From: a virus | DNA length: 42,889 nt | Reading direction: 5' to 3' (one strand) | Virus record (IMG/VR): IMGVR_UViG_3300028666_000053 | Span: 1-42,889 of that record | Shown: positions 1-42,889 of the stretch, in pieces | How positions within the stretch are numbered: the stretch's first letter is position 1 | How the letters are laid out: each line of letters opens with the position of its first letter | Translations under genes and position numbers: made by a program | Notes under the pieces: generated by a model | What the model was told of the DNA's origin: nothing | The model's database searches: none | The model's input: only the letters and a program-made list of their open reading frames with translations

Positions 1-130
1 GACCGGGGCGACAGATGACCGAGAACTCATTAAAAGAGCATTAAGCCAAATTTCATGTCGTTCTATATTCGATAGTACAACAGCCACTTTTCAAGACTTG
101 TGGGAAAATAATTCAAATCGATTAGCCGTA
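1..130. repeat. terminal redundancy, left copy
   Basis: These 130 bases recur at 42760-42889 with a single difference, c at 127 versus a at 42886. The mismatch is in the third base of an Ala codon (GCC or GCA), so it is silent. Because the primase-helicase frame continues across the junction, this is most simply an overlap left by assembling a circular or circularly permuted molecule; a genuine short terminal repeat is the alternative. Confidence 0.9.
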
Positions 131-1777
131 GCGTATCCACCGAAAAGCTCAGGACAAATTTACGACTCAAGTGCAGCTGATTTAGCGCTAGCTTCACATC
201 TTGCTTTTTGGACTGGCCAGCATCATGAGCGCATCAAAAATTTAATGATGCAATCTTTTTTAGTAAGAGAAAAATGGAATCGCTATGGGTACTTACGAGA
301 GACTATACAAAAAGCTTGCTGTCGACAAATTGAAGTCTTCAAGAAAGAAATTGCGGCACAAGCGGCACCTGTTTTACCATCTTCTAGATACAGAGCAACG
401 ACTCTGGCTGATTATGTACCTGCACAAATTTCCACAGTCACAGGCAAAACTTTAATTTCAGTAGATAATTTAGAAAAAATATTTGAAGGGTGTGTGTATA
501 TTTGTGACATACACAAGATATGGGTACCCTCGGGGTTCACTTTATCGCCCGATCAATTTAGAGTAATGTATGGCGGATATACTTTTGCCATGGATTTCTC
601 GAATGAAAAATTCACCTCCGACGCATTTAAAGCTTTTACGCAATCTCAAGCAAAAAGATTTCCAAAAGTTGATTCTTCTTGTTTTTTCACAGATCAACCA
701 CCAGGTGCAATTTTAGTTGAAAATAAAAAGAGAGTTGTAAATACCTGGTGGCCGATAGAAACTAAAAAAGTATACGGGGATATAAGTCCATTCTTAAATC
801 ACCTCAGAAAGATGTTACCGGTGGAACAAGATCAAAAGATACTATTAAGTTACATGGCTGCAGTTGTGCAATACCCTGGTAAAAAATTTGATTGGTGCCC
901 GGTAATTCAAGGCGTGGAGGGGAATGGTAAGAGCGTACTTTCTTTATGTCTCGTTGAAGCGTTAGGTTACAATTATGCTAAAACTGTCCCACTTTCAGAT
1001 TTTAGCGAAAGGTTTAACGCTTTCTTATACAAATCATTATTTGTTTGGATCGACGATGTGGGGCCCTGTAAATCTAAAATAGAAGCTATAGAATCACTAA
1101 AAACCAAAATTACTGCTACATTTACAAAGATAGAACCGAAGGGAAAAGACCAGACTTTTGAAAAAATATATTGTAATTTCATGTTAAATTCTAATCACAA
1201 AGATTGCGTGCAGAAGGCTCAGAACGAGCGTAGGTTCGCAATTTTTTATACAGCCCAACAAAAAAAATCAGATTTAGCCGCATGCGGGATGACACAAAAG
1301 TATTTGTCGGCTTTAGAGAGCTGGTTTAAACAAGACGGGTTTGCGATTGTAAATCAATTTTTATGTGACTTTGAAATCCCGGATGAATTTAACCCCACGG
1401 GTGTGTGTAAACACGCTCCAGCTACTTCTAGTATTAATGAAGTAGAATTAATCAATACTGATTTTGTTGAAATCGAGTTAAGAGAAGTGATCGAACAAGA
1501 CACCCCTGGGTTTAGAGGAGGGTGGGTATCAAGCGTCATGCTGGATAATTGGCTAGTCTCTGTGAAATTAGATAAAAAAATAAACCGGCGTCAGCGGTCC
1601 ATACTGCTAGAAAATATGGGGTATATAGTGCATCCGGGTTTAACAGACGGCCGAACGAACACTAAAGTGATGCCGGATGGCGCTAAACCCAGGCTTTATA
1701 TACACAAAGACAGCGGGTTGCAAGACATACGTAAAGATATAGCTAAAGAGTATGCTGACGCACAAGTTAAAAATTAA
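2..1777 (+). CDS. primase-helicase, C-terminal part (D5-like SF3 helicase)
   Basis: This is the downstream part of a gene starting at 42146 and running through the circle junction; the joined product is 796 aa. Seen here: an SF3-type ATPase with Walker A GVEGNGKS (about nt 910-935), Walker B FVWIDDVG, the sensor-like FMLNSNH and the arginine-rich NERRFAIFY. Phage D5/P4-type proteins of this build prime and unwind DNA at the replication fork. The frame is open from base 2, so the TTG at 98 is not the real start. The gene ends the + strand replication unit that begins with the helicase at 39728. Family call is firm; the exact domain border is inferred. Confidence 0.93.
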   Translation, partial: TGATDDRELIKRALSQISCRSIFDSTTATFQDLWENNSNRLAVAYPPKSSGQIYDSSAADLALASHLAFWTGQHHERIKNLMMQSFLVREKWNRYGYLRETIQKACCRQIEVFKKEIAAQAAPVLPSSRYRATTLADYVPAQISTVTGKTLISVDNLEKIFEGCVYICDIHKIWVPSGFTLSPDQFRVMYGGYTFAMDFSNEKFTSDAFKAFTQSQAKRFPKVDSSCFFTDQPPGAILVENKKRVVNTWWPIETKKVYGDISPFLNHLRKMLPVEQDQKILLSYMAAVVQYPGKKFDWCPVIQGVEGNGKSVLSLCLVEALGYNYAKTVPLSDFSERFNAFLYKSLFVWIDDVGPCKSKIEAIESLKTKITATFTKIEPKGKDQTFEKIYCNFMLNSNHKDCVQKAQNERRFAIFYTAQQKKSDLAACGMTQKYLSALESWFKQDGFAIVNQFLCDFEIPDEFNPTGVCKHAPATSSINEVELINTDFVEIELREVIEQDTPGFRGGWVSSVMLDNWLVSVKLDKKINRRQRSILLENMGYIVHPGLTDGRTNTKVMPDGAKPRLYIHKDSGLQDIRKDIAKEYADAQVKN

Positions 1778-2397: not shown

Positions 2398-2619
2398 GTG
2401 CAATTTTTAAAAACTTGGGACGACAAAAAATTAATCACAATTTCTCAGGCTTTATATGTTTTTAGCAGAATAGCTAGATGTCGGGTACGACATAAAAATT
2501 TTATAGAATTTTTAGCTAATGAGAAAATAAAGTTTTTTTATGAAAATGGCCGCCGCTACGTATTGCACGCAGATATCGTAAAAGCGGCTGAACTGTGGAA
2601 ACCTGGAGGGATTTTATGA
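2398..2619 (+). CDS. small HTH/excisionase-like DNA-binding protein
   Basis: The 73-aa product starts at GTG with GGAGAGGA just upstream; a longer frame from the TTG at 2344 is open but has a worse start. The pattern TISQALYVFSRI, then KNFIEF, NEKIKFFYENGRRYV and HADIVKAAELW resembles the winged helix-turn-helix of excisionase/MerR-like phage proteins (helix, turn, wing, final helix). It overlaps the next gene by ATGA, suggesting co-translation with a second HTH protein. The DNA-binding role is inferred from pattern only. Confidence 0.55.
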   Translation: MQFLKTWDDKKLITISQALYVFSRIARCRVRHKNFIEFLANEKIKFFYENGRRYVLHADIVKAAELWKPGGIL

Positions 2620-3029
2620 AATTGCTTATAATTTATACAGACCCGGAAAAAATAGAAAGCCTTAAAATTTTTGTTGAAAAAGCACTAAAGCGGTACTTTC
2701 TGCTGTCTAAGATAGACGAAATCCAATGCTATGTCGGTACACGGCTGAGAATAGAAGTCACGGGTGACATAGGGCGGTATTCTCACGGTCAACTGCAAAA
2801 GCTTAATGGGGAATTATACGAGCTAGAGCATAATATTACTCAAGCTTTTTGCAATGAGGTTCGTACAACTATTGAACACATAGCTAATATTTTGCATATT
2901 TCTCCTCGACATGTTCAGAGACTTTGCAAAAAGGGGGTAATACCGGCGCATAAAAATGACGGAAGATGGCAAATATCGTCTGATGATTTTAAAGACTATT
3001 TAAATATTTTTTTTAAAAAAAATTATTGA
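2616..3029 (+). CDS. HTH_17-type DNA-binding protein, candidate early regulator
   Basis: The 137-aa product has an unrecognised N-terminal domain of about 85 residues followed by an excisionase/MerR-like HTH: TIEHIANILHISPRHVQRLCKKGVIPAHKNDGRW then ISSDDFKDYL, which matches the helix, turn, helix, wing, helix layout of HTH_17. The ATG at 2616 has GGAGGG upstream and overlaps the previous stop. The gene is followed by operator site 2, which covers its own stop codon, and its operon begins next to operator site 1. This makes it a candidate for the protein that binds TTGAC-N6-GTCAA, although the TetR-like protein at 41820 is an equal candidate. Confidence 0.65.
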   Translation: MKLLIIYTDPEKIESLKIFVEKALKRYFLLSKIDEIQCYVGTRLRIEVTGDIGRYSHGQLQKLNGELYELEHNITQAFCNEVRTTIEHIANILHISPRHVQRLCKKGVIPAHKNDGRWQISSDDFKDYLNIFFKKNY

Positions 3030-4565: not shown

Positions 4566-4598
4566 ATACAAGTTCGAATAAATCGTGAGGACACACAC

Positions 4599-4754
4599 AT
4601 GAAAAATATCACAGTCATGACATTCTGTCAGAAGCCAGTGGCTGAATACTTTATATATTGTCTCACAGCAATAGCTAGGATTTCGTTAATGGGTCGTGTA
4701 CTGCTTTGTGATGGAATCAGAAGTAAAAAAATAAAGAGGCAAGCGCATGAATAA
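4599..4754 (+). CDS. small hypothetical protein (51 aa)
   Basis: The 51-aa frame has GTGAGG shortly before its ATG and overlaps the following microprotein by 8 nt. The middle of the protein is hydrophobic (EYFIYCLTAIARISLM) and the end is basic (RSKKIKRQAHE), so a membrane-peripheral role is possible. No family is recognised. Confidence 0.5.
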   Translation: MKNITVMTFCQKPVAEYFIYCLTAIARISLMGRVLLCDGIRSKKIKRQAHE

Positions 4755-4830
4755 ATTAGATATTATTTTAGGGGGAGCGGTAATTTTATGTATTGTGGGA
4801 GTTATTATATTTTGTCATTACTACCCATAA
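4747..4830 (+). CDS. single-pass membrane microprotein (27 aa)
   Basis: The 27-aa frame begins MNKLDIILGGAV and is one hydrophobic helix (ILGGAVILCIVGVIIFC) ending HYYP. GAGG precedes the ATG, and its start overlaps the gene at 4599. It is the last gene before the terminator at 4886. Phage microproteins of this shape often act on membrane proteins, but nothing here identifies the target. Confidence 0.5.
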   Translation: MNKLDIILGGAVILCIVGVIIFCHYYP

Positions 4831-4841
4831 TGTAAATTTGG

Positions 4842-4875
4842 GTCGCAGACGACTTAAAAATAGGTCGTCTACGAC
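4842..4875. other. imperfect 12-bp hairpin after the small-gene operon
   Basis: GTCGCAGACGAC (4842-4853) and GTCGTCTACGAC (4864-4875) pair with one mismatch around a 10-nt loop. Its left arm plus TTAAAAATA is nearly identical to 6327-6347. Confidence 0.5.
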
Positions 4876-4885
4876 TACTCGCAAG

Positions 4886-4909
4886 AGCGCTTTAGTCGGC
4901 GCTTTTTTT
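4886..4909 (+). terminator. rho-independent terminator of the small-gene operon
   Basis: AGCGC-TTTAGTCG-GCGCT followed by a T7 run (4903-4909). It lies 55 nt after the last small gene and immediately before the gene-free region. Confidence 0.75.
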
Positions 4910-4965
4910 ACGTCTCCATTTTTATCCGCATTTATATAGTTGAGTTTAGTATGATTATGACATGG

Positions 4966-4987
4966 GCCTTCTAGGCCCCTAGAAGGC
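4966..4987. repeat. near-perfect 22-bp palindrome (10-2-10)
   Basis: GCCTTCTAGG (4966-4975), CC, CCTAGAAGGC (4978-4987). No T run follows, so it does not look like a terminator. It could be a recombination, resolution or replication-initiation site, or a protein-binding site. Confidence 0.6.
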
Positions 4988-5160
4988 TATTTATGGAACG
5001 ATAACACGATTCTAGCTCCTCAGGTACCTTTTTAGGGCTAAAAGCGCCCTGAGCGCTGTAAAGCGATTTTTTGATTTTTCCACAAAATCCTTACTAACTA
5101 TTAGTGAAATTGTATAAAATCTTCTCAATCTCCCCAAAACCCACTTTTGCTTCGAAAAAA

Positions 5161-5330
5161 CGTAAACACGTCACGGGCCACTGCGGCAGTAAGGCGCAAA
5201 TCACTTTTCCCGCAAAAAAACGTAAACACGTCACGGGCCACTGCGGCAGTAAGGCGCAAGCCACTTTTCCCGCAAAAAAACGTAAACACGTCACGGGCCA
5301 CTGCGGCAGTAAGGCGCAAGCCACTTTTCC
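5161..5330. repeat. three 60-bp tandem direct repeats (iteron-like)
   Basis: Units at 5161-5220, 5221-5280 and 5281-5330 (last one shortened) begin CGTAAACACGTCACGGGCCA and include CTGCGGCAG and AAGGCGCAAGCCACTTTT. Unit 1 differs from unit 2 by two bases near the end; a decayed partial unit precedes at about 5140-5160. Units are distinctly GC-richer than the surroundings. There is no spacer, so this is not a CRISPR array. Confidence 0.85.
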
Positions 5331-5610
5331 CCCGAAACTACCCCTTTTTTGCATACTCCTGGGTAAAAAACATAAAATATTATTTACGTCGTTAGCGACC
5401 TATTATCGTTTTCATGTTGTTTTAGTAAAGTTTTTTTTTTTACCTCCTGGTTAGCTGTTTTCACCTACTATAGCGGATTTTTTTTACTTGTGCTTATACT
5501 AGCTATAATCATATTTAATATATTTGTGTAGTTAGAATTAATAAAAAAAAAATACTAATTTTAACTAAACGAAAAAAAACGTCGCAAAAAACTCGCGAAT
5601 TCTAACTACA

Positions 5611-5627
5611 GTTAGCATTTCGCTAAC
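5611..5627. repeat. inverted repeat GTTAGC-ATTTC-GCTAAC
   Basis: A 6-5-6 perfect inverted repeat inside a cluster of TTAGC/GCTAA words (5605-5640). It may be a protein-binding site in the candidate origin region. Confidence 0.4.
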
Positions 5628-5716
5628 TCTTAGCAAAAACGATTTTAAGTTATTGATTTTGTGGTGTCGTATTGTCGGAATCTCAGACCCCGCATTTTTG
5701 TGTATATTATATACAG

Positions 5717-5776
5717 CGGGCCAAAAGTGGCTTGCGCCTTACGGCCCCTGTGGCCCGTTACGTGTCTGTGTTTTTT
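5717..5776. repeat. diverged inverted copy of the 60-bp repeat
   Basis: Read on the - strand this stretch matches the 60-bp unit across nearly its whole length, including AAGGCGCAAGCCACTTTT, with about six substitutions and a small indel. A further isolated core, ACGGGCCAC, in forward orientation lies near 5792-5800. Inverted placement 400 bp from the array suggests a functional, looped arrangement. Confidence 0.7.
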
Positions 5777-6045
5777 AGAGGTGAAATAGTTACGGGCCAC
5801 TTAAAAAAAAAAAATTATCTTACGTATCAGTAAGTTATATTTTTTCACCATTTTTTTAGGTGTATTTTTTTACTTTTTTTACTAAAACTAGCAAATCGCA
5901 TTTTAACCACCACGTTAGCAAAAAAATATTTGTCAAGTTTATTTTAGGTCGCGATGTCGCATCCTAATTTATTAATACATTTATTAGTTTATATGCGACT
6001 ATTTATGGTTTACACTATTGTAAAGTAGAAGGCTCATGAATATTC

Positions 6046-6062
6046 TCACTAAAAATTAGTGA
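6046..6062. repeat. inverted repeat TCACTAA-AAA-TTAGTGA
   Basis: Perfect 7-3-7 repeat. Related ACTAA/TTAGT palindromes are at 5097-5106 (ACTAATTAGT) and 6184-6196 (ACTAA-TTT-TTAGT), so this is a small repeated site family in the gene-free region. Confidence 0.5.
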
Positions 6063-6246
6063 ATTTATGGGGTTTTAGGAGGTTTTCGGAAATTTGCTAA
6101 ATGTAACAGAAAAAAGTGCTTCGAAAATGGCATTTTTTAGTAAATGGGTTTTCAGAAGTACGATTCACCAGTAATTAGCATTTACTAATTTTTAGTATAT
6201 AAAATAATAATAAATATATTATGGATAATAGGTTGATTTAGTATTG

Positions 6247-6269
6247 CTTTTTAGAATAATACTAAAAAG
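6247..6269. repeat. inverted repeat CTTTTTAG-N7-CTAAAAAG
   Basis: Perfect 8-7-8 repeat about 190 bp before the first late gene. It could act as an operator; the AU-rich stem is too weak for a convincing terminator. Confidence 0.4.
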
Positions 6270-6322
6270 GCATCGATAATATGAAAAGCCCGTATGTATT
6301 CAGTAGAAAATTGAGTTTGTAA

Positions 6323-6347
6323 TTAAGTCGCAAACGACTTAAAAATA
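6323..6347 (+). terminator. hairpin TTAAGTCG-CAAA-CGACTTAA, weak terminator or regulatory element
   Basis: Perfect 8-4-8 stem-loop followed by an A-rich then T-rich stretch, just upstream of the late promoter. GTCGCAAACGACTTAAAAAT differs at one base from 4842-4861. It may insulate the late operon from upstream transcription. Confidence 0.45.
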
Positions 6348-6367
6348 TTTTTAGTAGAGAAAGTTCT

Positions 6368-6397
6368 TGACTTTCCACTTTTTACTGTTCTAGTATA
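6368..6397 (+). promoter_or_regulatory. late (structural) operon promoter
   Basis: TTGACT (6368-6373), 18-nt spacer, TAGTAT (6392-6397), 38 nt before the first terminase start. It has no TTGAC-N6-GTCAA palindrome, unlike the early promoters, which fits separate control of late genes. Confidence 0.6.
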
Positions 6398-6434
6398 CTG
6401 AAAACCATTATGCGATGAAAAATAGGAAAAAATT

Positions 6435-6827
6435 ATGCAGAATAGAGATATGAACTATTTGATACCCCAAAATGACTTTATTTCAGATGAACCTGTCCCT
6501 AGAAAAACCCTATTAAAATTTAAGGATTTAGCTTATACAGCGGAAGAAGTTAAACAAACAGTCGGTTCTCTTTTAGTAATGACTTTGCCTGAGTTATATC
6601 AAATGTATAACTCTTTAAATATTACAGTACTCGAAAAAGCGCTTGCCTGTGCAGTGCTGCAAGGGATCGGGGATGGCGATATTTCTGTGTTAGATACGCT
6701 TTTGTCCCGGGCGTTCGGTAAAAGCCGGCAAGCTCCGGAGATCGCTAGAAAAGTTAAATTAGATACGATTAAATCACATATAGACCCCCTGAGTGCCGCA
6801 GCTATCTATAAAGAACTGATGGGCTAA
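6435..6827 (+). CDS. terS: terminase small subunit
   Basis: The 130-aa product lies directly before the large terminase, the usual place for the DNA-recognition subunit. The sequence is mostly helical, with a C-terminal part (SRAFGKSRQAPE, then HIDPLSAAAIYKELMG) that fits the oligomerisation and large-subunit contact region of small terminases. AGGAAAAA precedes the ATG. It is the first gene of the late operon. The call rests on position and general pattern, not on a strong motif. Confidence 0.75.
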   Translation: MQNRDMNYLIPQNDFISDEPVPRKTLLKFKDLAYTAEEVKQTVGSLLVMTLPELYQMYNSLNITVLEKALACAVLQGIGDGDISVLDTLLSRAFGKSRQAPEIARKVKLDTIKSHIDPLSAAAIYKELMG

Positions 6828-6829
6828 GA

Positions 6830-8404
6830 GTGGATTTTGATTATAGTTCGCCTGACTACACTGCGGTTTTTAATCATAGAATAGAGCGCTTACAACGTAT
6901 CAGAGAGCAACCACATAAGCTTCCGATGCTTTATAGTTACTATAGAGAACACCCGTGGCAATTCATCAATGACTGGGGTAATACATACGATCCACGGAAT
7001 TTAGCAAAAGGTTTACCGGCTACTATTCCGTTTTTACTCTTTAAAAAACAAGAAGAGTGGATAAAGTTTGTTTTTAAAAACTGGAAAGACTCGATATCCG
7101 CGCTCACTGAAAAATCTCGCGGGATGGGGCTTAGCTGGTTAGCAGTAGCTTTTTCAGCAACAATAGCTATCTTTAATGACGATGTTACAATTTCATTTGT
7201 TTCACGGGTTGAATCAAATGTTGACAAAATAGGAGACCCGGATTCTCTTTTTGAAAAAGCGAGAATGTTTATCGCACTATTACCTCCAGAATTCAGAGGA
7301 GATTGGATGGCACATAGAGACTCTTCGCATCTAAAAATATTGTTCCCAGCTACAAATTCTATAATCAGAGGGGAAGCCGGTAAAAATGCAGGGAGGGGAG
7401 GTCGGGCTTCTATCGTTTTTGTGGATGAAGCCGCGCATTTACAGCAAGCAGAGTCAGTAGAAAAGTCTTTGTCACAAACAACATTTTGTAGACAAGACAT
7501 TTCTACCCCCAATGGCCGTGCAAACCCTTTTGCTAGAAAAAGATTTAGTGGGGCTTTACCCGTTTTTACATTGCATTGGCGTGATGATCCACATAAAAAC
7601 AAAGAATGGTATGATAAAATGTGTAAAGTGCTGAATGACCCGGTTATAATTGCACAAGAACTAGATATCGACTATTCGGCCTCGGTCAATGGTATTGTGA
7701 TCCCTTCGCAATGGGTTCAGGCCGCCGTGGGGGCTTATGAAAAATTGGGTTTAAAAAGCAGTGGTCCTGGAAAAACGGCTATGGACGTAGCGGACGAAGG
7801 ATTTGATGATAACTCTATTTCGGTCAGGTTTGGGATGGAATTAAAATACTTAGAGACTTTTAGTGGGAAAGGTAGCGATATTTTTAAGTCGGTAATAAGA
7901 GCTTATCATATTTGCGATAACCATTCTATAAGCCTCTTGCGGTATGATGCGGACGGTTTAGGTGCTTCGGTGCGGGGGGACTCTAGAATGATTAATGAGC
8001 ATAGAGCCGCAGAAGGTATTTCAGAAATAATATCAGAACCTTTTCGAGGGTCAGCGCAAGTCGTATCCCCGGAATTGAAAAATGGCACGGGGGTAAAGAA
8101 TAAAGACAGGTTTCAAAATCTGAAGTCTCAAAGTTGGTGGCATCTGAGGACTCTGTTTTTAAACACTTATCGTGCAATTGTAGAAAAAATGGAGTACGAT
8201 GTGGAAAATATTATTTCTATAGACCCACGCTTGCCGGAGTTAAGTCAACTGCTTGTTGAATTGTCGCAACCGACTTATTCTCTAACAAATTCGGGTAAAA
8301 TAGTAATAGATAAAAGCCCAGACGGCTCTAAATCCCCTAATAGGGCCGATAGTGTCATGATTTTGTATTCACCGGAACGATCTAAAGGATTCTTTGATGT
8401 TTAA
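6830..8404 (+). CDS. terL: terminase large subunit
   Basis: The 524-aa product is the DNA-packaging motor. Seen: Walker A-like KSRGMGLSW (about residues 95-103), Walker B IVFVDEA (195-201), and a C-terminal RNase H-like nuclease starting at TAMDVADEG (Asp near 319) with YDADGLGAS later. Length is normal for a headful-type large terminase. It starts at GTG two bases after the small-subunit stop and overlaps the portal start. A 220-aa antisense open frame within it is a shadow. Confidence 0.95.
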   Translation: MDFDYSSPDYTAVFNHRIERLQRIREQPHKLPMLYSYYREHPWQFINDWGNTYDPRNLAKGLPATIPFLLFKKQEEWIKFVFKNWKDSISALTEKSRGMGLSWLAVAFSATIAIFNDDVTISFVSRVESNVDKIGDPDSLFEKARMFIALLPPEFRGDWMAHRDSSHLKILFPATNSIIRGEAGKNAGRGGRASIVFVDEAAHLQQAESVEKSLSQTTFCRQDISTPNGRANPFARKRFSGALPVFTLHWRDDPHKNKEWYDKMCKVLNDPVIIAQELDIDYSASVNGIVIPSQWVQAAVGAYEKLGLKSSGPGKTAMDVADEGFDDNSISVRFGMELKYLETFSGKGSDIFKSVIRAYHICDNHSISLLRYDADGLGASVRGDSRMINEHRAAEGISEIISEPFRGSAQVVSPELKNGTGVKNKDRFQNLKSQSWWHLRTLFLNTYRAIVEKMEYDVENIISIDPRLPELSQLLVELSQPTYSLTNSGKIVIDKSPDGSKSPNRADSVMILYSPERSKGFFDV

Positions 8405-13794: not shown

Positions 13795-14210
13795 ATAAAA
13801 ATTACATATACTCAACGATGACCGGCAGTGTAGCATACGCATTATATAAACGGTTGCATGGAGAATTAATCCAAGAAGTAGAAGGTACTCGAGTTTTGAT
13901 TAATGGGAATTCTCATGTAGCCGTGGCTACAAATCCTTTAAAAACCCATTTTATGACGCAAAAAGGAGCGGTAACAGTTGTAACTGATGAGCAATTAGAG
14001 CTACTTAAAAATAATCCGGTTTTTGATATTCATCTTAAAAATGGGTTTATTAAAATAGACTCTAAAAAAGACATCGATAATGCAATTCGGGATTTAAATA
14101 AAAAAGATAAGTCTGCGCCGTATTGCCCTGAGGATTATGAAAAAAATGGAAGGCGCTATGAAAGTGGGTCTAGAGTTAAAGCCCCCTCCGTCGGAAAAGT
14201 AAATGAATGA
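13791..14210 (+). CDS. hypothetical head protein, paralogue B
   Basis: The 139-aa product contains the same small domain as the preceding gene (VTDEQLELLKNNPVFDIH) plus a charged C-terminal tail with a Cys-Pro-Glu stretch. Proteins with STMTGSVAYALY-type openings are common between capsid and connector genes of Mu-like phages. ATGA overlap upstream and downstream shows co-translation. Function is unknown. Confidence 0.7.
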   Translation: MNKNYIYSTMTGSVAYALYKRLHGELIQEVEGTRVLINGNSHVAVATNPLKTHFMTQKGAVTVVTDEQLELLKNNPVFDIHLKNGFIKIDSKKDIDNAIRDLNKKDKSAPYCPEDYEKNGRRYESGSRVKAPSVGKVNE

Positions 14211-14641
14211 CTTCAGTAACCTTTGACGTTACAAAATTTAGAGCGATGTATCCACAATTTGCGGACCCGGTTGAATTTCCAGACGTAATATTGCAGGGGT
14301 TTTGGGATTTAGCTACATGTTACATGTCCGACGAAAATTACGGTATTTTGCAGGGTAATTGTAGACAAAATGCTCTAAATATGCTGACGGCGCATTTGGC
14401 TGGATTATCGGGGGTACAAGCGGCCGGTGAGATAACAAACGTAATACAAAATGCGGTTGTAGATAAGACACAAGTTGGTTTTGTGGCACCACCTATAAAA
14501 AATTCTTGGCAGTATTGGCTGAATGAGACGCCGTATGGACAACAATTTTTAGCGTTAATGTGCGTCCTATCTGCCGGAGGATTTTATATCGGGGGATTAC
14601 CTGAGAAGTCGGCATTTAGGAAGGTGTACGGAATTTTTTAA
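14207..14641 (+). CDS. head-tail connector (DUF4054-like)
   Basis: The 144-aa product begins VTFDVTKFRAMYPQFADP and continues with ILQGFWDLATCYMSDENYG and QNALNMLTAHLAGL, a clear DUF4054 pattern. Members are adaptor-type head completion proteins that dock onto the portal. It overlaps the next gene by one base. Confidence 0.85.
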   Translation: MTSVTFDVTKFRAMYPQFADPVEFPDVILQGFWDLATCYMSDENYGILQGNCRQNALNMLTAHLAGLSGVQAAGEITNVIQNAVVDKTQVGFVAPPIKNSWQYWLNETPYGQQFLALMCVLSAGGFYIGGLPEKSAFRKVYGIF

Positions 14642-29152: not shown

Positions 29153-30681
29153 CAATTCAAAATCCACTGGGCATAACGCCCTTAAACGGTCAATTGGTCT
29201 CTTCTGATTCAAGCGGGAACTTGAGTAACAGCGGATCGATGCATTGGGATAATACCAACACACGGTTATTGATTGGTACCGCCTCAGGATATACTGGCGT
29301 TACCACGGATCGATTAGAACTATCGGGGGGCACTGCAGGAAGTGTCAATATTTTAGAAGTTTATCAATCCCCGCGGTCTTTTTCGGCGGCCGCCAATGAT
29401 GGATTTATGCTCTTAGGAGCAGCCACTTCCCCAGGTGTCCTGGGCAGTCATGATTATGGCGCTATCGTGATGGGTAATAACCCTAGTGTTAACAATGGCG
29501 GGGCAGGTCTTTTTCAATTTAGAGTAGGCGGCACTGCTTCAGCGAGTTCTGCCAATGGTCTATTTTTACAATGCCTCACAACGTCTGCAAACAGCATCAG
29601 TGAAATCGATTTTTATACGGGCGCCTCTGTTAAAAGAATGTCGATTGACGGCTCTGGCAATGTGAATGTGGTGAATTTAACCGCATCCCTACCGGTGTTT
29701 ACCGATGCTTCCAAAAATCTCACCAGTACTGGAACAGTCGGCGCAACCAGTGGCGGCACCAGCCAATCGACTTATACCTTAGGCGATACTTTATATGCCT
29801 CTGCCACCAATGTTTTATCGAAACTCACGGGTAATACCACGGCTGTCAAACAATATTTAAGCCAAACAGGTACCGGCTCTGTTTCTGCAGCCCCTGCATG
29901 GGCAACCATCTCTGGCGCAGATGTTACTGGCGCCGCACTAACCAAAACAGACGACACCAATGTCACCTTAACCCTGGGCGGAACGCCCGCTACTGCGTTA
30001 TTAAATGCGTCTAGCTTAACGTTAGGTTGGACAGGGCAGCTATCTATTGCCCGAGGTGGAAATAATGTTGGATCACAGACAACGAATGGGGTTTTATTTA
30101 ACAATGGCACCCAAAATACAACAAGTTCTAGCTTTAGTTACACGACCGGGCTACTAACATCTACTACGAATTCAGGCGGATTTTCTCAAATCCGGGCACA
30201 GTATACTACAACTAGCGGCGTGGCCGGACTGGTTGCGGATCGTTTTGATCAAGCGACAGGAACAGCTAGAATGCAATACCGCACAAATGGGTCAGCGGTA
30301 TGGTCTGTGGAATTACGTCCTGCTGATGCGTCTTTACATTTTTATGACGAAACGAATTCAACAGATCGAGTCACAATAAGTCAAACTGGTGATCTTACCG
30401 CATTGACTGGAAATATTTTAGTAAATACTCCAGGTAAAACAATTGAAATAAAAGAAGGCAGTAATGCATGTAAGGGCACAGTGACACTGGTTGCCGGCGC
30501 CGCTACAGTTAGCACTACAGCCGTAGGAACAAATGATATGATAGTCCTTTCTCCATTTACTGCAGGGGGAACACCAGGCAGTATTCCTTTTCCAACTATC
30601 ACGAATGGCGCTTCATTTTCGTTAGCTGGATTATCGACAGATACATCTACATACAAATGGCTAATTGTCAAAGCCGCTTAA
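29149..30681 (+). CDS. tail fibre protein, probably horizontally acquired
   Basis: The 510-aa product is Gly/Ser/Thr-rich with fibre-shaft repeats (GATSGGTSQSTYTLGDTLYAS, QTGTGSVSAAPAWATISG) and a C-terminal cap-like domain from about residue 330. Codon use and base composition over about 29150-30110 are visibly GC-richer (GGC, ACC, GCC, CTG codons) than the neighbouring fibre gene, returning to the phage average near 30120. The block looks imported, a common event for host-range modules. The ATG overlaps the previous stop. Confidence 0.8.
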   Translation: MTIQNPLGITPLNGQLVSSDSSGNLSNSGSMHWDNTNTRLLIGTASGYTGVTTDRLELSGGTAGSVNILEVYQSPRSFSAAANDGFMLLGAATSPGVLGSHDYGAIVMGNNPSVNNGGAGLFQFRVGGTASASSANGLFLQCLTTSANSISEIDFYTGASVKRMSIDGSGNVNVVNLTASLPVFTDASKNLTSTGTVGATSGGTSQSTYTLGDTLYASATNVLSKLTGNTTAVKQYLSQTGTGSVSAAPAWATISGADVTGAALTKTDDTNVTLTLGGTPATALLNASSLTLGWTGQLSIARGGNNVGSQTTNGVLFNNGTQNTTSSSFSYTTGLLTSTTNSGGFSQIRAQYTTTSGVAGLVADRFDQATGTARMQYRTNGSAVWSVELRPADASLHFYDETNSTDRVTISQTGDLTALTGNILVNTPGKTIEIKEGSNACKGTVTLVAGAATVSTTAVGTNDMIVLSPFTAGGTPGSIPFPTITNGASFSLAGLSTDTSTYKWLIVKAA

Positions 30682-37137: not shown

Positions 37138-37248
37138 TTAAAATCTGGTGCCATTTTCACCACCAGTGCCATTATCAAAGCCAGAGCCAGGGCCAAAGCC
37201 ATCGCCATAGCCATAGTCAGAGACAGAGCCGCAGTTGCTATCGTTCAT
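37138..37248 (-). CDS. GSY low-complexity protein, copy 1 (36 aa, diverged)
   Basis: The 36-aa product opens MNDSNCGSVSDYGYGDGF, sharing MNDSNC and the leader DNA with the three genes upstream, then diverges to GTGGENGTRF. It looks like the shortest or decayed member of the four-gene array. Coding status rests on the shared start region. Confidence 0.55.
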   Translation of the reverse strand: MNDSNCGSVSDYGYGDGFGPGSGFDNGTGGENGTRF

Positions 37249-37290
37249 TTTTCTCTCGAAGATGTTTGTAAGTACTTAATTTTAAATTAA
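37233..37290 (-). repeat. conserved leader repeat of the GSY array
   Basis: A block of about 58 bp containing the start codon region, CTTCGAGAGAAAAATGAACG, AAGTACTT and the 15-bp palindrome TTAATTTTAAATTAA is repeated almost exactly at about 37460-37517 and 37801-37858. It joins each gene to the next and may carry transcription or translation signals. Confidence 0.75.
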
Positions 37291-37475
37291 TAGCCAGAAC
37301 CGGAATCAGAGCCATAGCCAGAGCCATAGCCACAGCCAGAGCCATAGCCATCGTCATAGCCATCGTCATAGCCAGAGCCATAGCCATAGCCAGAGCCATA
37401 GCCAGAGCCATAGCCAGAGCCATAGCCAGAACCAGAGACAGAGCCATAATCATAACGGCAGTTGCTATCGTTCAT
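37287..37475 (-). CDS. GSY low-complexity protein, copy 2 (62 aa)
   Basis: The 62-aa product is MNDSNCRYDYGS followed by alternating GS and GY dipeptides and a few GYDD units, ending GSDSGSGY. The DNA is a hexanucleotide repeat, so length can change without breaking the frame. Leader, start and 3' end are nearly identical to copy 3. No fold or family is known; the composition resembles phase-separating [G/S]Y[G/S] domains. Confidence 0.6.
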   Translation of the reverse strand: MNDSNCRYDYGSVSGSGYGSGYGSGYGSGYGYGSGYDDGYDDGYGSGCGYGSGYGSDSGSGY

Positions 37476-37513
37476 TTTTCTCTCGAAGATGTTTGTAAGT
37501 ACTTAATTTTAAA

Positions 37514-37816
<303 letters not shown>

Positions 37817-37854
37817 TTTTCTCTCGAAGATGTTTGTAAGTACTTAATCTTAAA

Positions 37855-38103
<249 letters not shown>

Positions 38104-38610: not shown

Positions 38611-39306
38611 TCAATTGCTTGTTTCATTTTTAAGTTCCTCTAAATTAAGTTCTTTAATAACATCAATTCCTGAAATTTCTAAAAATACCTTAGGACAAAA
38701 ATTTGGAAGATTTAAGACCAATTGTCTATCATCATCTGATGTGTTATTCCAAGATTTACGCCAAGCTTCTTTATACCCATTTATCTTTAAATAACCCCCT
38801 GAAACAAAAAAATTAGGATTATTTATTTTTTCTTGATCTGTCATATTTTTTTTAGAGATCCATTCAGTTAATTTAAAAAATATAAAATTAGGTTTAATAC
38901 ATTCGCTCCATATTTTAGATGAGCACAATTTATTAAATACTAAAATTTCATCTGGGGTTGTTGTGTTAAAAAATCCACTGTTCCAGTTCCCACTGTTCCA
39001 GTTCCCACTGTTCCAGTTCCCACTGTTCCTGTTCCCACTGTTCCAGTTCCCACTGTTCCTGTTCCCACTGTTCAAGTCCCCGCTATTCCTGTTCCCACTG
39101 TTCAAGTCCCCGCTGTTCCAGTCCCCACTGTTCCAGTCCCCACTGTTCCAGTCCCCACTGTTCCAGTCCCCGCTGTTCCTGTTCCCACTGTTCCAGTTCC
39201 CACTGTTCCTGTACCCACTAGCTATTATTGTAGCTTCATAGATATTAATTTTCTCCTCGTCTTGTTGGCATTTTTCAGATAACCATGGAATTATTTTTTG
39301 ATTCAT
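38611..39306 (-). CDS. NSGNW pentapeptide-like repeat phage protein
   Basis: The 231-aa product has an N-terminal helix, then about 18 tandem NSG[NDF][WRL]-type repeats (residues about 34-112) that may form a right-handed beta structure, and a C-terminal domain ending PNFFVSGGYLKINGYKEAWR, LVLNLPNFCPKVFLEISGIDV that is a common phage pattern. The 15-bp DNA repeats allow in-frame length change. It lies between the 91-bp direct repeats. Confidence 0.75.
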   Translation of the reverse strand: MNQKIIPWLSEKCQQDEEKINIYEATIIASGYRNSGNWNSGNRNSGDWNSGDWNSGDWNSGDWNSGDLNSGNRNSGDLNSGNRNSGNWNSGNRNSGNWNSGNWNSGNWNSGFFNTTTPDEILVFNKLCSSKIWSECIKPNFIFFKLTEWISKKNMTDQEKINNPNFFVSGGYLKINGYKEAWRKSWNNTSDDDRQLVLNLPNFCPKVFLEISGIDVIKELNLEELKNETSN

Positions 39307-42145: not shown

Positions 42146-42889
42146 ATGAAAAGATTACCGCAAGCTCTTAAAGGGCTTGAAAAATACTCTCAGTTTATTT
42201 TGTATCGAGTTATTCCCAGCCAAAAAAGACCGGGAAAAACTGATAAAATAACCGTCGATTATAAAACGGGGCTAAATGTAAATCCGTATACGCCCGGGGT
42301 TCAAACCGATTTTACTACATTAGCTAATATACTTCCCGCTTTTTCAGATGACTTTCGGATTGGGTTTATCTTATCGGAAGACGACCCCTTCTTTTTTTTA
42401 GACATAGACGATTGTCTCATATTAGAAAAAGATAAGTCAGAATGGAATAAAATAGCAAAAGAGGTATGCTCTACTTTTTCCGGCGCTGCTATAGAAATAT
42501 CTACGTCTATGCGCGGTCTCCACATCATTGGGAAGTATGCTAAAAATATCCCGCATGCTTGTCGCGATCAGAAAAAATTAAATTTAGAATTATATACTAA
42601 AAAAAGATTGATCGCGCTAACAGGTATATCCGCTGTGGGGGATGTGAATTTTGAATGCACTGATAAATTAGAAAATTTAATTCAAGACTATTTCACTGCC
42701 CAAATTTCGGAAATTATTAAAAAAGAAAATATCTGGAATTTAACACCGCGCCCGGATTGGACCGGGGCGACAGATGACCGAGAACTCATTAAAAGAGCAT
42801 TAAGCCAAATTTCATGTCGTTCTATATTCGATAGTACAACAGCCACTTTTCAAGACTTGTGGGAAAATAATTCAAATCGATTAGCAGTA
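42146..42889 (+). CDS. primase-helicase, N-terminal part (AEP primase)
   Basis: The frame is open from ATG 42146 (AAGGATG upstream) to the window end and continues at base 2 after removing the 130-base overlap. Seen: archaeo-eukaryotic primase motifs FFLDIDD (Asp 86 and 88) and STSMRGLHIIG (His near 126), followed by the helicase in the C-terminal part. It is the final gene of the helicase-nuclease-regulator operon. Confidence 0.92.
   Translation, partial: MKRLPQALKGLEKYSQFILYRVIPSQKRPGKTDKITVDYKTGLNVNPYTPGVQTDFTTLANILPAFSDDFRIGFILSEDDPFFFLDIDDCLILEKDKSEWNKIAKEVCSTFSGAAIEISTSMRGLHIIGKYAKNIPHACRDQKKLNLELYTKKRLIALTGISAVGDVNFECTDKLENLIQDYFTAQISEIIKKENIWNLTPRPDWTGATDDRELIKRALSQISCRSIFDSTTATFQDLWENNSNRLAV
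42760..42889. repeat. terminal redundancy, right copy
   Basis: Matches bases 1-130 except at 42886 (a here, c at 127). The silent mismatch near the very end may be an assembly-edge or population difference. Confidence 0.9.

Follow-up and report, generated by a model that had tools for sequence, protein, structure and literature searches.

The window analysed here, a complete IMG/VR virus record, is 42,889 bases long. Positions 1-126 are identical to 42760-42885, with one base differing among the last four beyond this overlap; the assembly is therefore circular, with a variant, and the primase gene spans the join. With its two parts put together, the primase has 796 aa and matches the helix-bundle domain of the NrS-1 polymerase (PF22763, 1.5e-16), DUF5906 (PF19263, 4.4e-16), a VapE-like domain and the solved structures of NrS-1 Prim/Pol-HBD and helicase (PDB 7rr4, 6k9a and 6k9e). 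By these Pfam and PDB matches, the Prim/Pol, helix-bundle and AAA+ helicase regions are all present. The genome resembles Jedunavirus (Klebsiella phages) in its replication genes. A divergent point at 39.68 kb separates the genes for a family A polymerase, a Gp2.5-like SSB and an exonuclease, on its left, from those for a helicase, an endonuclease and the primase, on its right. The large terminase subunit (TerL) is nearest to those of Burkholderia phage Magia and Bordetella phage IFTN9 (about 55%), and a family match was not found for the probable small subunit (terS) that precedes it. Neither tRNA genes nor matches to Rfam families were found in the window, and single-protein scans with TerL or primase did not find close relatives.

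About 3.4 kb downstream of the primase, a set of repeats lies within a gene-free stretch of about 1.6 kb that runs from about 4.83 kb to terS, i.e., from the early operon to the terminase genes (Table 1). A first-pass annotation of the sequence had described the setting as gene-free and AT-rich, and at an ORF threshold of 70 aa the intervals 4566-5093 and 5455-6434 are indeed empty, while between 5093 and 5455 there is nothing but frames running through the repeats. The region of the likely early terminator (4825-4925) has a fold z of -4.5, and because this terminator lies upstream of the repeats, the array is probably outside the early transcript. No DnaA box was found in the gap. Just before the terminator, at 4838-4882, two copies of the palindrome GTCGNNNNCGAC are mutual inverted copies and make up a long hairpin. 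At 4960-4990, likewise free of genes, a strong perfect hairpin, GCCTTCTAGG-CC-CCTAGAAGGC, is not followed by a T-run.

Table 1. Genes, repeats and signals of the window (positions in the window; strand where assigned).
Feature	Position	Strand	Basis or remark
NrS-1-type primase-polymerase-helicase, C-terminal part	98..1777	+	N-terminal part 42146-42759, across contig ends
Palindrome GTCGNNNNCGAC	2327, 2480, 3062, 4842, 4864, 5388, 6327; 8263		8263 is inside terL
HTH protein (HTH_17), candidate small DNA-binding protein	2595-3029		
Likely intrinsic terminator of early operon	4884..4912	+	AGCGC hairpin, then T7
Remnant of an additional repeat (CCACTTTT... tail)	5138..5159 (about)	+	repeat search, TRF 3.2 copies
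Three 60-bp direct units	5160-5219, 5220-5279, 5280-5339	+	TRF
AT-rich spacer, proposed unwinding region	5338..5716	.	GC scan
IHF-consensus site WATCAANNNNTTR	5646..5658	-	consensus match
Inverted unit	5717..5786	-	81% over 70 bp to direct units, E about 1e-14
Lone core GTTACGGGCCAC	5789..5800	+	inverted partner of 5750-5761, 11/12 bp
Second IHF-consensus site in gap	6226..6238	-	consensus match
Sigma-70-like late promoter candidate, upstream of terS	6367..6396	+	weak
Probable small terminase subunit, terS	6435..6827	+	position before TerL only
Large terminase subunit, TerL	6830..8404	+	PHROG 2; ~55% to Burkholderia phage Magia

A repeat array on both sides of an AT-rich spacer

The three near-exact direct units reported in the first-pass annotation were recovered by TRF as a match at 5141-5331 (period 60, 3.2 copies, 94% matches, score 340), compared with a score of at most 51 for periods of at least 20 in 100 first-order Markov shuffles of the gap. 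The third unit diverges at its end. A decayed fourth unit had also been proposed at the left; a remnant is present there, but it is merely a fragment of about 20 bp and not a whole unit. The inverted unit was found again, reaching the full span given in Table 1, as was the isolated core at 5792, although its inverted pairing with the core of the inverted unit had been overlooked. The window has exactly five copies of this core, ACGGGCCAC, all of them within the array: once in each direct unit (5173, 5233 and 5293), at 5750 on the minus strand, and at 5792. Units 2 and 3 each carry GCCACT twice, 23 bp apart. The GC content of the units (0.52-0.55) is above that of their surroundings. GTG is strongly one-stranded: all 13 copies in the direct units are on the minus strand, and in the inverted part five are plus and one is minus, although these counts are inflated by repetition, three of them coming from copies of a single unit.

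The spacer between the direct and inverted units contains the AT minimum, a 60 bp segment starting at 5504 with 10% GC. It carries GTTAGC/GCTAAC four times, two of the gap's four plus-strand copies of TTTTYACC, and one copy of the latter on the minus strand. At the density of the rest of the genome, 0.16 IHF-consensus sites would be expected in the 1.6-kb gap, which has two (Poisson p about 0.01); taken alone, the IHF evidence from the window is modest.

A search for the unit in other genomes, as the first-pass annotation had advised, returned no relative. Blastn found none in phages or plasmids, the array translated as protein had no match in plasmids, and exact and degenerate patterns gave only chance-like matches in IMG/VR. 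The core pattern had a single chance-like match among 84,980 bacterial and archaeal genomes. Altogether, the 31 pattern matches of the unit were single, short, chance-like and not extendable. Within the collections searched, the unit appears to be private to this phage, and having no relatives, its function is therefore to be judged by its place and layout.

Corresponding modules downstream of related primases

A scan with a primase alignment returned 80 IMG/VR loci. Of these, 57 are non-redundant and contain non-coding stretches of at least 180 bp (together 32.9 kb) that follow the primase and precede TerL or portal. Among all 6- and 7-mers of this DNA, the top over-represented words were TACCCCG/CGGGGTA, with 54 copies where shuffles gave 5.8, and GGGGTA, with 104 where they gave 27; 18 loci carry at least three copies of GGGGTA (1.7 expected). 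The wider class TACC[ACT]C was found 173 times against 59, and for the IHF consensus 24 sites compare with expectations of 1.6 (shuffling) and 2.1 (locus density). The non-coding DNA upstream of the primase at the same loci, with the same GC, served as a control and gave 3 against 1.1 for TACCCCG, 16 against 13.7 for TACC[ACT]C, and 0 against 0.6 for IHF.

The orientation of the sites was compared at the 16 loci with at least four of them in one gap. Before the AT minimum the ratio of plus to minus sites is 35/11, and after it 25/30 (Fisher p = 0.002), while the IHF sites lie mostly 20-90 bp past the minimum. Examples of the module are found at L061 (10897-11197), L067 (15450-15800), L081 (15411-15600) and L086 (8508-9119), the last of which additionally has a 30-bp GC-rich tandem in 3.5 copies.

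The TACCCCG site of the relatives is absent from the window, and the 60-bp unit shares no site with the TACCCCG family. Two more direct links between the window and these loci were considered and discarded. A 60-bp tandem is not present in all relatives, tandems occurring only in some (30 bp in L086 and 40 bp in L063), and a shared TAGCGG or AGYGGC motif was dropped, since its mild enrichment (28 against 15) came from few loci. Two other loci, L017 (5732-9102) and L031 (12276-15856), carry near-identical direct repeats of 35-90 bp scattered among small genes downstream of the primase, and these are probably repeated promoter or leader sequences.

A parallel to the window's layout was found at L131, the one locus in the set from the TerL-alignment scan that has both a window-type TerL (54%) and a relative of the primase (40% over 637 aa); its GC content of 0.38 is also alike. 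The 457-bp gap downstream of its primase contains CCGAAC six times against 0.06 expected, a number reached in 0/500 shuffles. CCCGAAC is present four times in the gap and nowhere else in the locus, the three direct copies lying before, and the inverted copy behind, a palindromic AT-rich stretch. This is the plan of the window (three direct, an AT-rich core, one inverted) in another spelling, so that between lineages the sequence of the repeat changes and its place and layout are kept. L131 is without an IHF-consensus site and does not share the one-stranded GTG feature.

A probable replication origin and its alternatives

The region of about 5.14-5.80 kb, probably with its flanks to 6.24 kb, is read here with moderate confidence as the replication origin of the phage, in which lineage-specific iterons would flank an AT-rich core. 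The support for this is comparative, i.e., the place and layout seen in relatives and not the sequence of the unit. An iteron-type origin was also the proposal of the first-pass annotation, and it stands as the best-supported reading by way of the arrays of the primase relatives, evidence which that annotation did not have. As in iteron origins, a replicon-specific repeat is present in several copies in a short non-coding stretch, an AT-rich region (10% GC over 60 bp) adjoins the repeats, IHF-consensus sites are found (at 5646 and 6226), and a replication gene is linked, the site module following the primase. Helical phasing of about 20-22 bp is not seen, the period being 60 bp with GCCACT at 23 and 37 bp, nor is a change in GC skew across the gap, the sign suggested by the first-pass annotation: the skew at fourfold-degenerate sites is 0.247 to the left and 0.245 to the right.

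The alternative that is harder to dismiss than packaging is transcription control, in which the units would be operator or enhancer sites for a phage regulator (e.g., the HTH protein at 2595-3029) and serve a late switch at terS, perhaps by looping. It is considered unlikely, but the gap lies exactly between the early terminator and the late operon, IHF serves promoters too, and the operator-like palindrome GTCGNNNNCGAC is clustered in and around the gap. This palindrome is found eight times in the genome against 0.12 expected; seven copies occur at 2.3-6.4 kb, within 4 kb near the small HTH genes and the gene-free stretch, and several are followed by CTTAAAAAT. The sites are probably operators of a phage regulator. 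The Klebsiella phage KpV52 (L007) offers a further point, as it has two copies, 95% identical, of a non-coding 302-bp module that combines TACCCCG sites with an AT-rich core: one before terS (47275-47405 plus 1-170) and one in the late/structural region (14040-14340), where it precedes another late gene block. Two origins are possible in this genome, and two regulated promoters equally so. Against transcription control, the module follows the replication primase and not late genes, an AT-rich core between inverted arrays together with an IHF site exceeds the needs of a promoter, and promoter-like sites in the gap are no commoner than in shuffles.

Recognition by the small terminase subunit as a packaging site (pac or cos) would suit the location of the array directly upstream of terS and terL, and repeats with IHF sites are known at lambda cosB, but this is an improbable reading. 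Enough upstream DNA was available for 49 TerL loci, and in the 48 that are without an NrS-1-type primase, TACCCCG occurs once upstream of terL against 1.9 expected, and the IHF consensus not at all against 2.4. TACC[ACT]C is mildly raised there (44 against 28, in a set of 48 loci that was not made non-redundant). Magia, IFTN9 and Omnitron, which have the window's TerL type and other replication genes, are without a repeat-rich stretch of such size upstream of terL. Conversely, the sites are present in phages with the primase but with an unrelated or barely related TerL, and most of the loci that have the clearest arrays (L061, L067, L081, L085, L086 and L037) are without a detectable window-type TerL in the DNA examined. 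The module goes with the primase and not with the terminase, and its not being kept with a shared TerL is therefore not what would be expected of a packaging site. The TerL test covers the site family of the relatives and would apply to the window's own unit by analogy only.

That the array is a selfish element or a repeat of host origin (REP or MITE-like), acquired by the phage and of no function to it, is more improbable still: the units have a higher GC content than their surroundings and are unique among the relatives, but no copy was found in phages or plasmids, nor, except for the one chance-like match, in the bacterial and archaeal genomes, and analogous arrays are kept at the same place in relatives. 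The least credible alternative is a structured RNA or small repeat protein, given that a single unit folds no better than shuffles on either strand (z -0.04 and -0.46), that there is no Rfam match, that a terminator lies upstream of the array, and that most differences between the two orientations of the unit are non-synonymous, whichever frame is read. In its favour, open frames traverse the array, and pairing between direct and inverted units is possible over 70 nt (fold z -6.9). The frames are by-products of the repeat period, as the first-pass annotation had supposed.

As parts of a replication origin, the 60-bp units and their inverted copy would be iterons, initiator sites particular to the lineage, placed to either side of the AT-rich region. 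The initiator would most likely be the phage's NrS-1-type primase-polymerase-helicase; alternatively, the initiator might be a small DNA-binding protein of the phage that recruits the primase, or the two might act together, the HTH_17 protein (2595-3029) being one candidate. The arrays would be bound by the initiator, the DNA bent by IHF, and the AT-rich core opened at about 5.34-5.72 kb; the ring helicase would then be loaded and primers laid, and extension would be carried out by the phage family A polymerase. The identity of the initiator, its binding, the opening and the start of synthesis at the array are steps that we infer. Looping between the direct and inverted units is possible.

The NrS-1 enzyme, which belongs to the same protein family as the window's primase, initiates de novo on TTTGGTTA and does so more efficiently where the template has GTGG or GTGA (PMC8718748). 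The NrS-1 genome has just two TTTGGTTA sites, suggested as its origin (PMC7102993), and no described array. In the window, TTTGGTTA is absent from the gap and occurs only at 29939 and 39443, which is below chance, whereas the units are dense in one-stranded GTG. Since the strand that carries GTG changes from minus in the direct units to mostly plus in the inverted part, an NrS-1-like enzyme might prime inward from both sides, although this is speculative. It is proposed tentatively that an undescribed class of origin accompanies NrS-1-type enzymes, in which inverted, fast-changing arrays would surround an AT core with IHF, and the GTG-bearing units would be inward priming sites.

Several known systems share parts of this arrangement. 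In phage P4, the alpha protein is a primase-helicase initiator with two separate repeat-bearing sites, ori and crr, much as is proposed for the window, but the P4 type I iteron (GGTGAACA) has no match in the window. At iteron origins the initiator binds the repeats, IHF or HU bends the DNA, the AT-rich region opens and the helicase is loaded (PMC5043065). Those of pSC101, R6K, RK2 and ori-lambda likewise have replicon-specific repeats beside an AT-rich region, several being assisted by IHF or HU (PMC5043065). Plasmid and lambda iterons, however, are of about 20 bp and phased, as is usual for plasmid iterons (PMC5043065), whereas the window has 60-bp units, one of them inverted beyond the AT-rich core, and no DnaA box in the gap. 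The plasmid pRN1 encodes ORF904, a related enzyme in which an AEP prim-pol is fused to a helicase, and it replicates from an origin situated in the non-coding DNA immediately behind that gene (PMC4234260). The prim-pol-helicase initiator and the position of the origin are as proposed for the window, but the pRN1 origin has a stem-loop and no iterons, in place of repeats and an AT-rich core. In the PLE of Vibrio cholerae, a non-coding region with several repeat types is required for replication and RepA binds one of these types (PMC7145576); the repeats in non-coding DNA are a likeness, but RepA is a RepA_N protein and not a prim-pol.

No description of a Jedunavirus replication origin was found in the searchable literature, in which the replication start of phages with NrS-1-type primases, Jedunavirus among them, is undescribed, two candidate sites having been suggested for NrS-1. 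The comparison gives a concrete candidate origin module for dozens of phages, of which some are represented in culture, and opens the question of how one protein might recognise, open and prime an origin whose repeats change spelling by lineage.

Repeats of other kinds are found elsewhere in the window. A long array of 6/12/18-bp repeats (AGCCAG/CAGAGCCATAGC) is located at 37163-38081, with several frames open through it, and adjoins a 227-bp tandem. At 38975-39219, within the ORF at 38611-39306, the 15-bp repeat CCACTGTTCCAGTTC is present 16 times.
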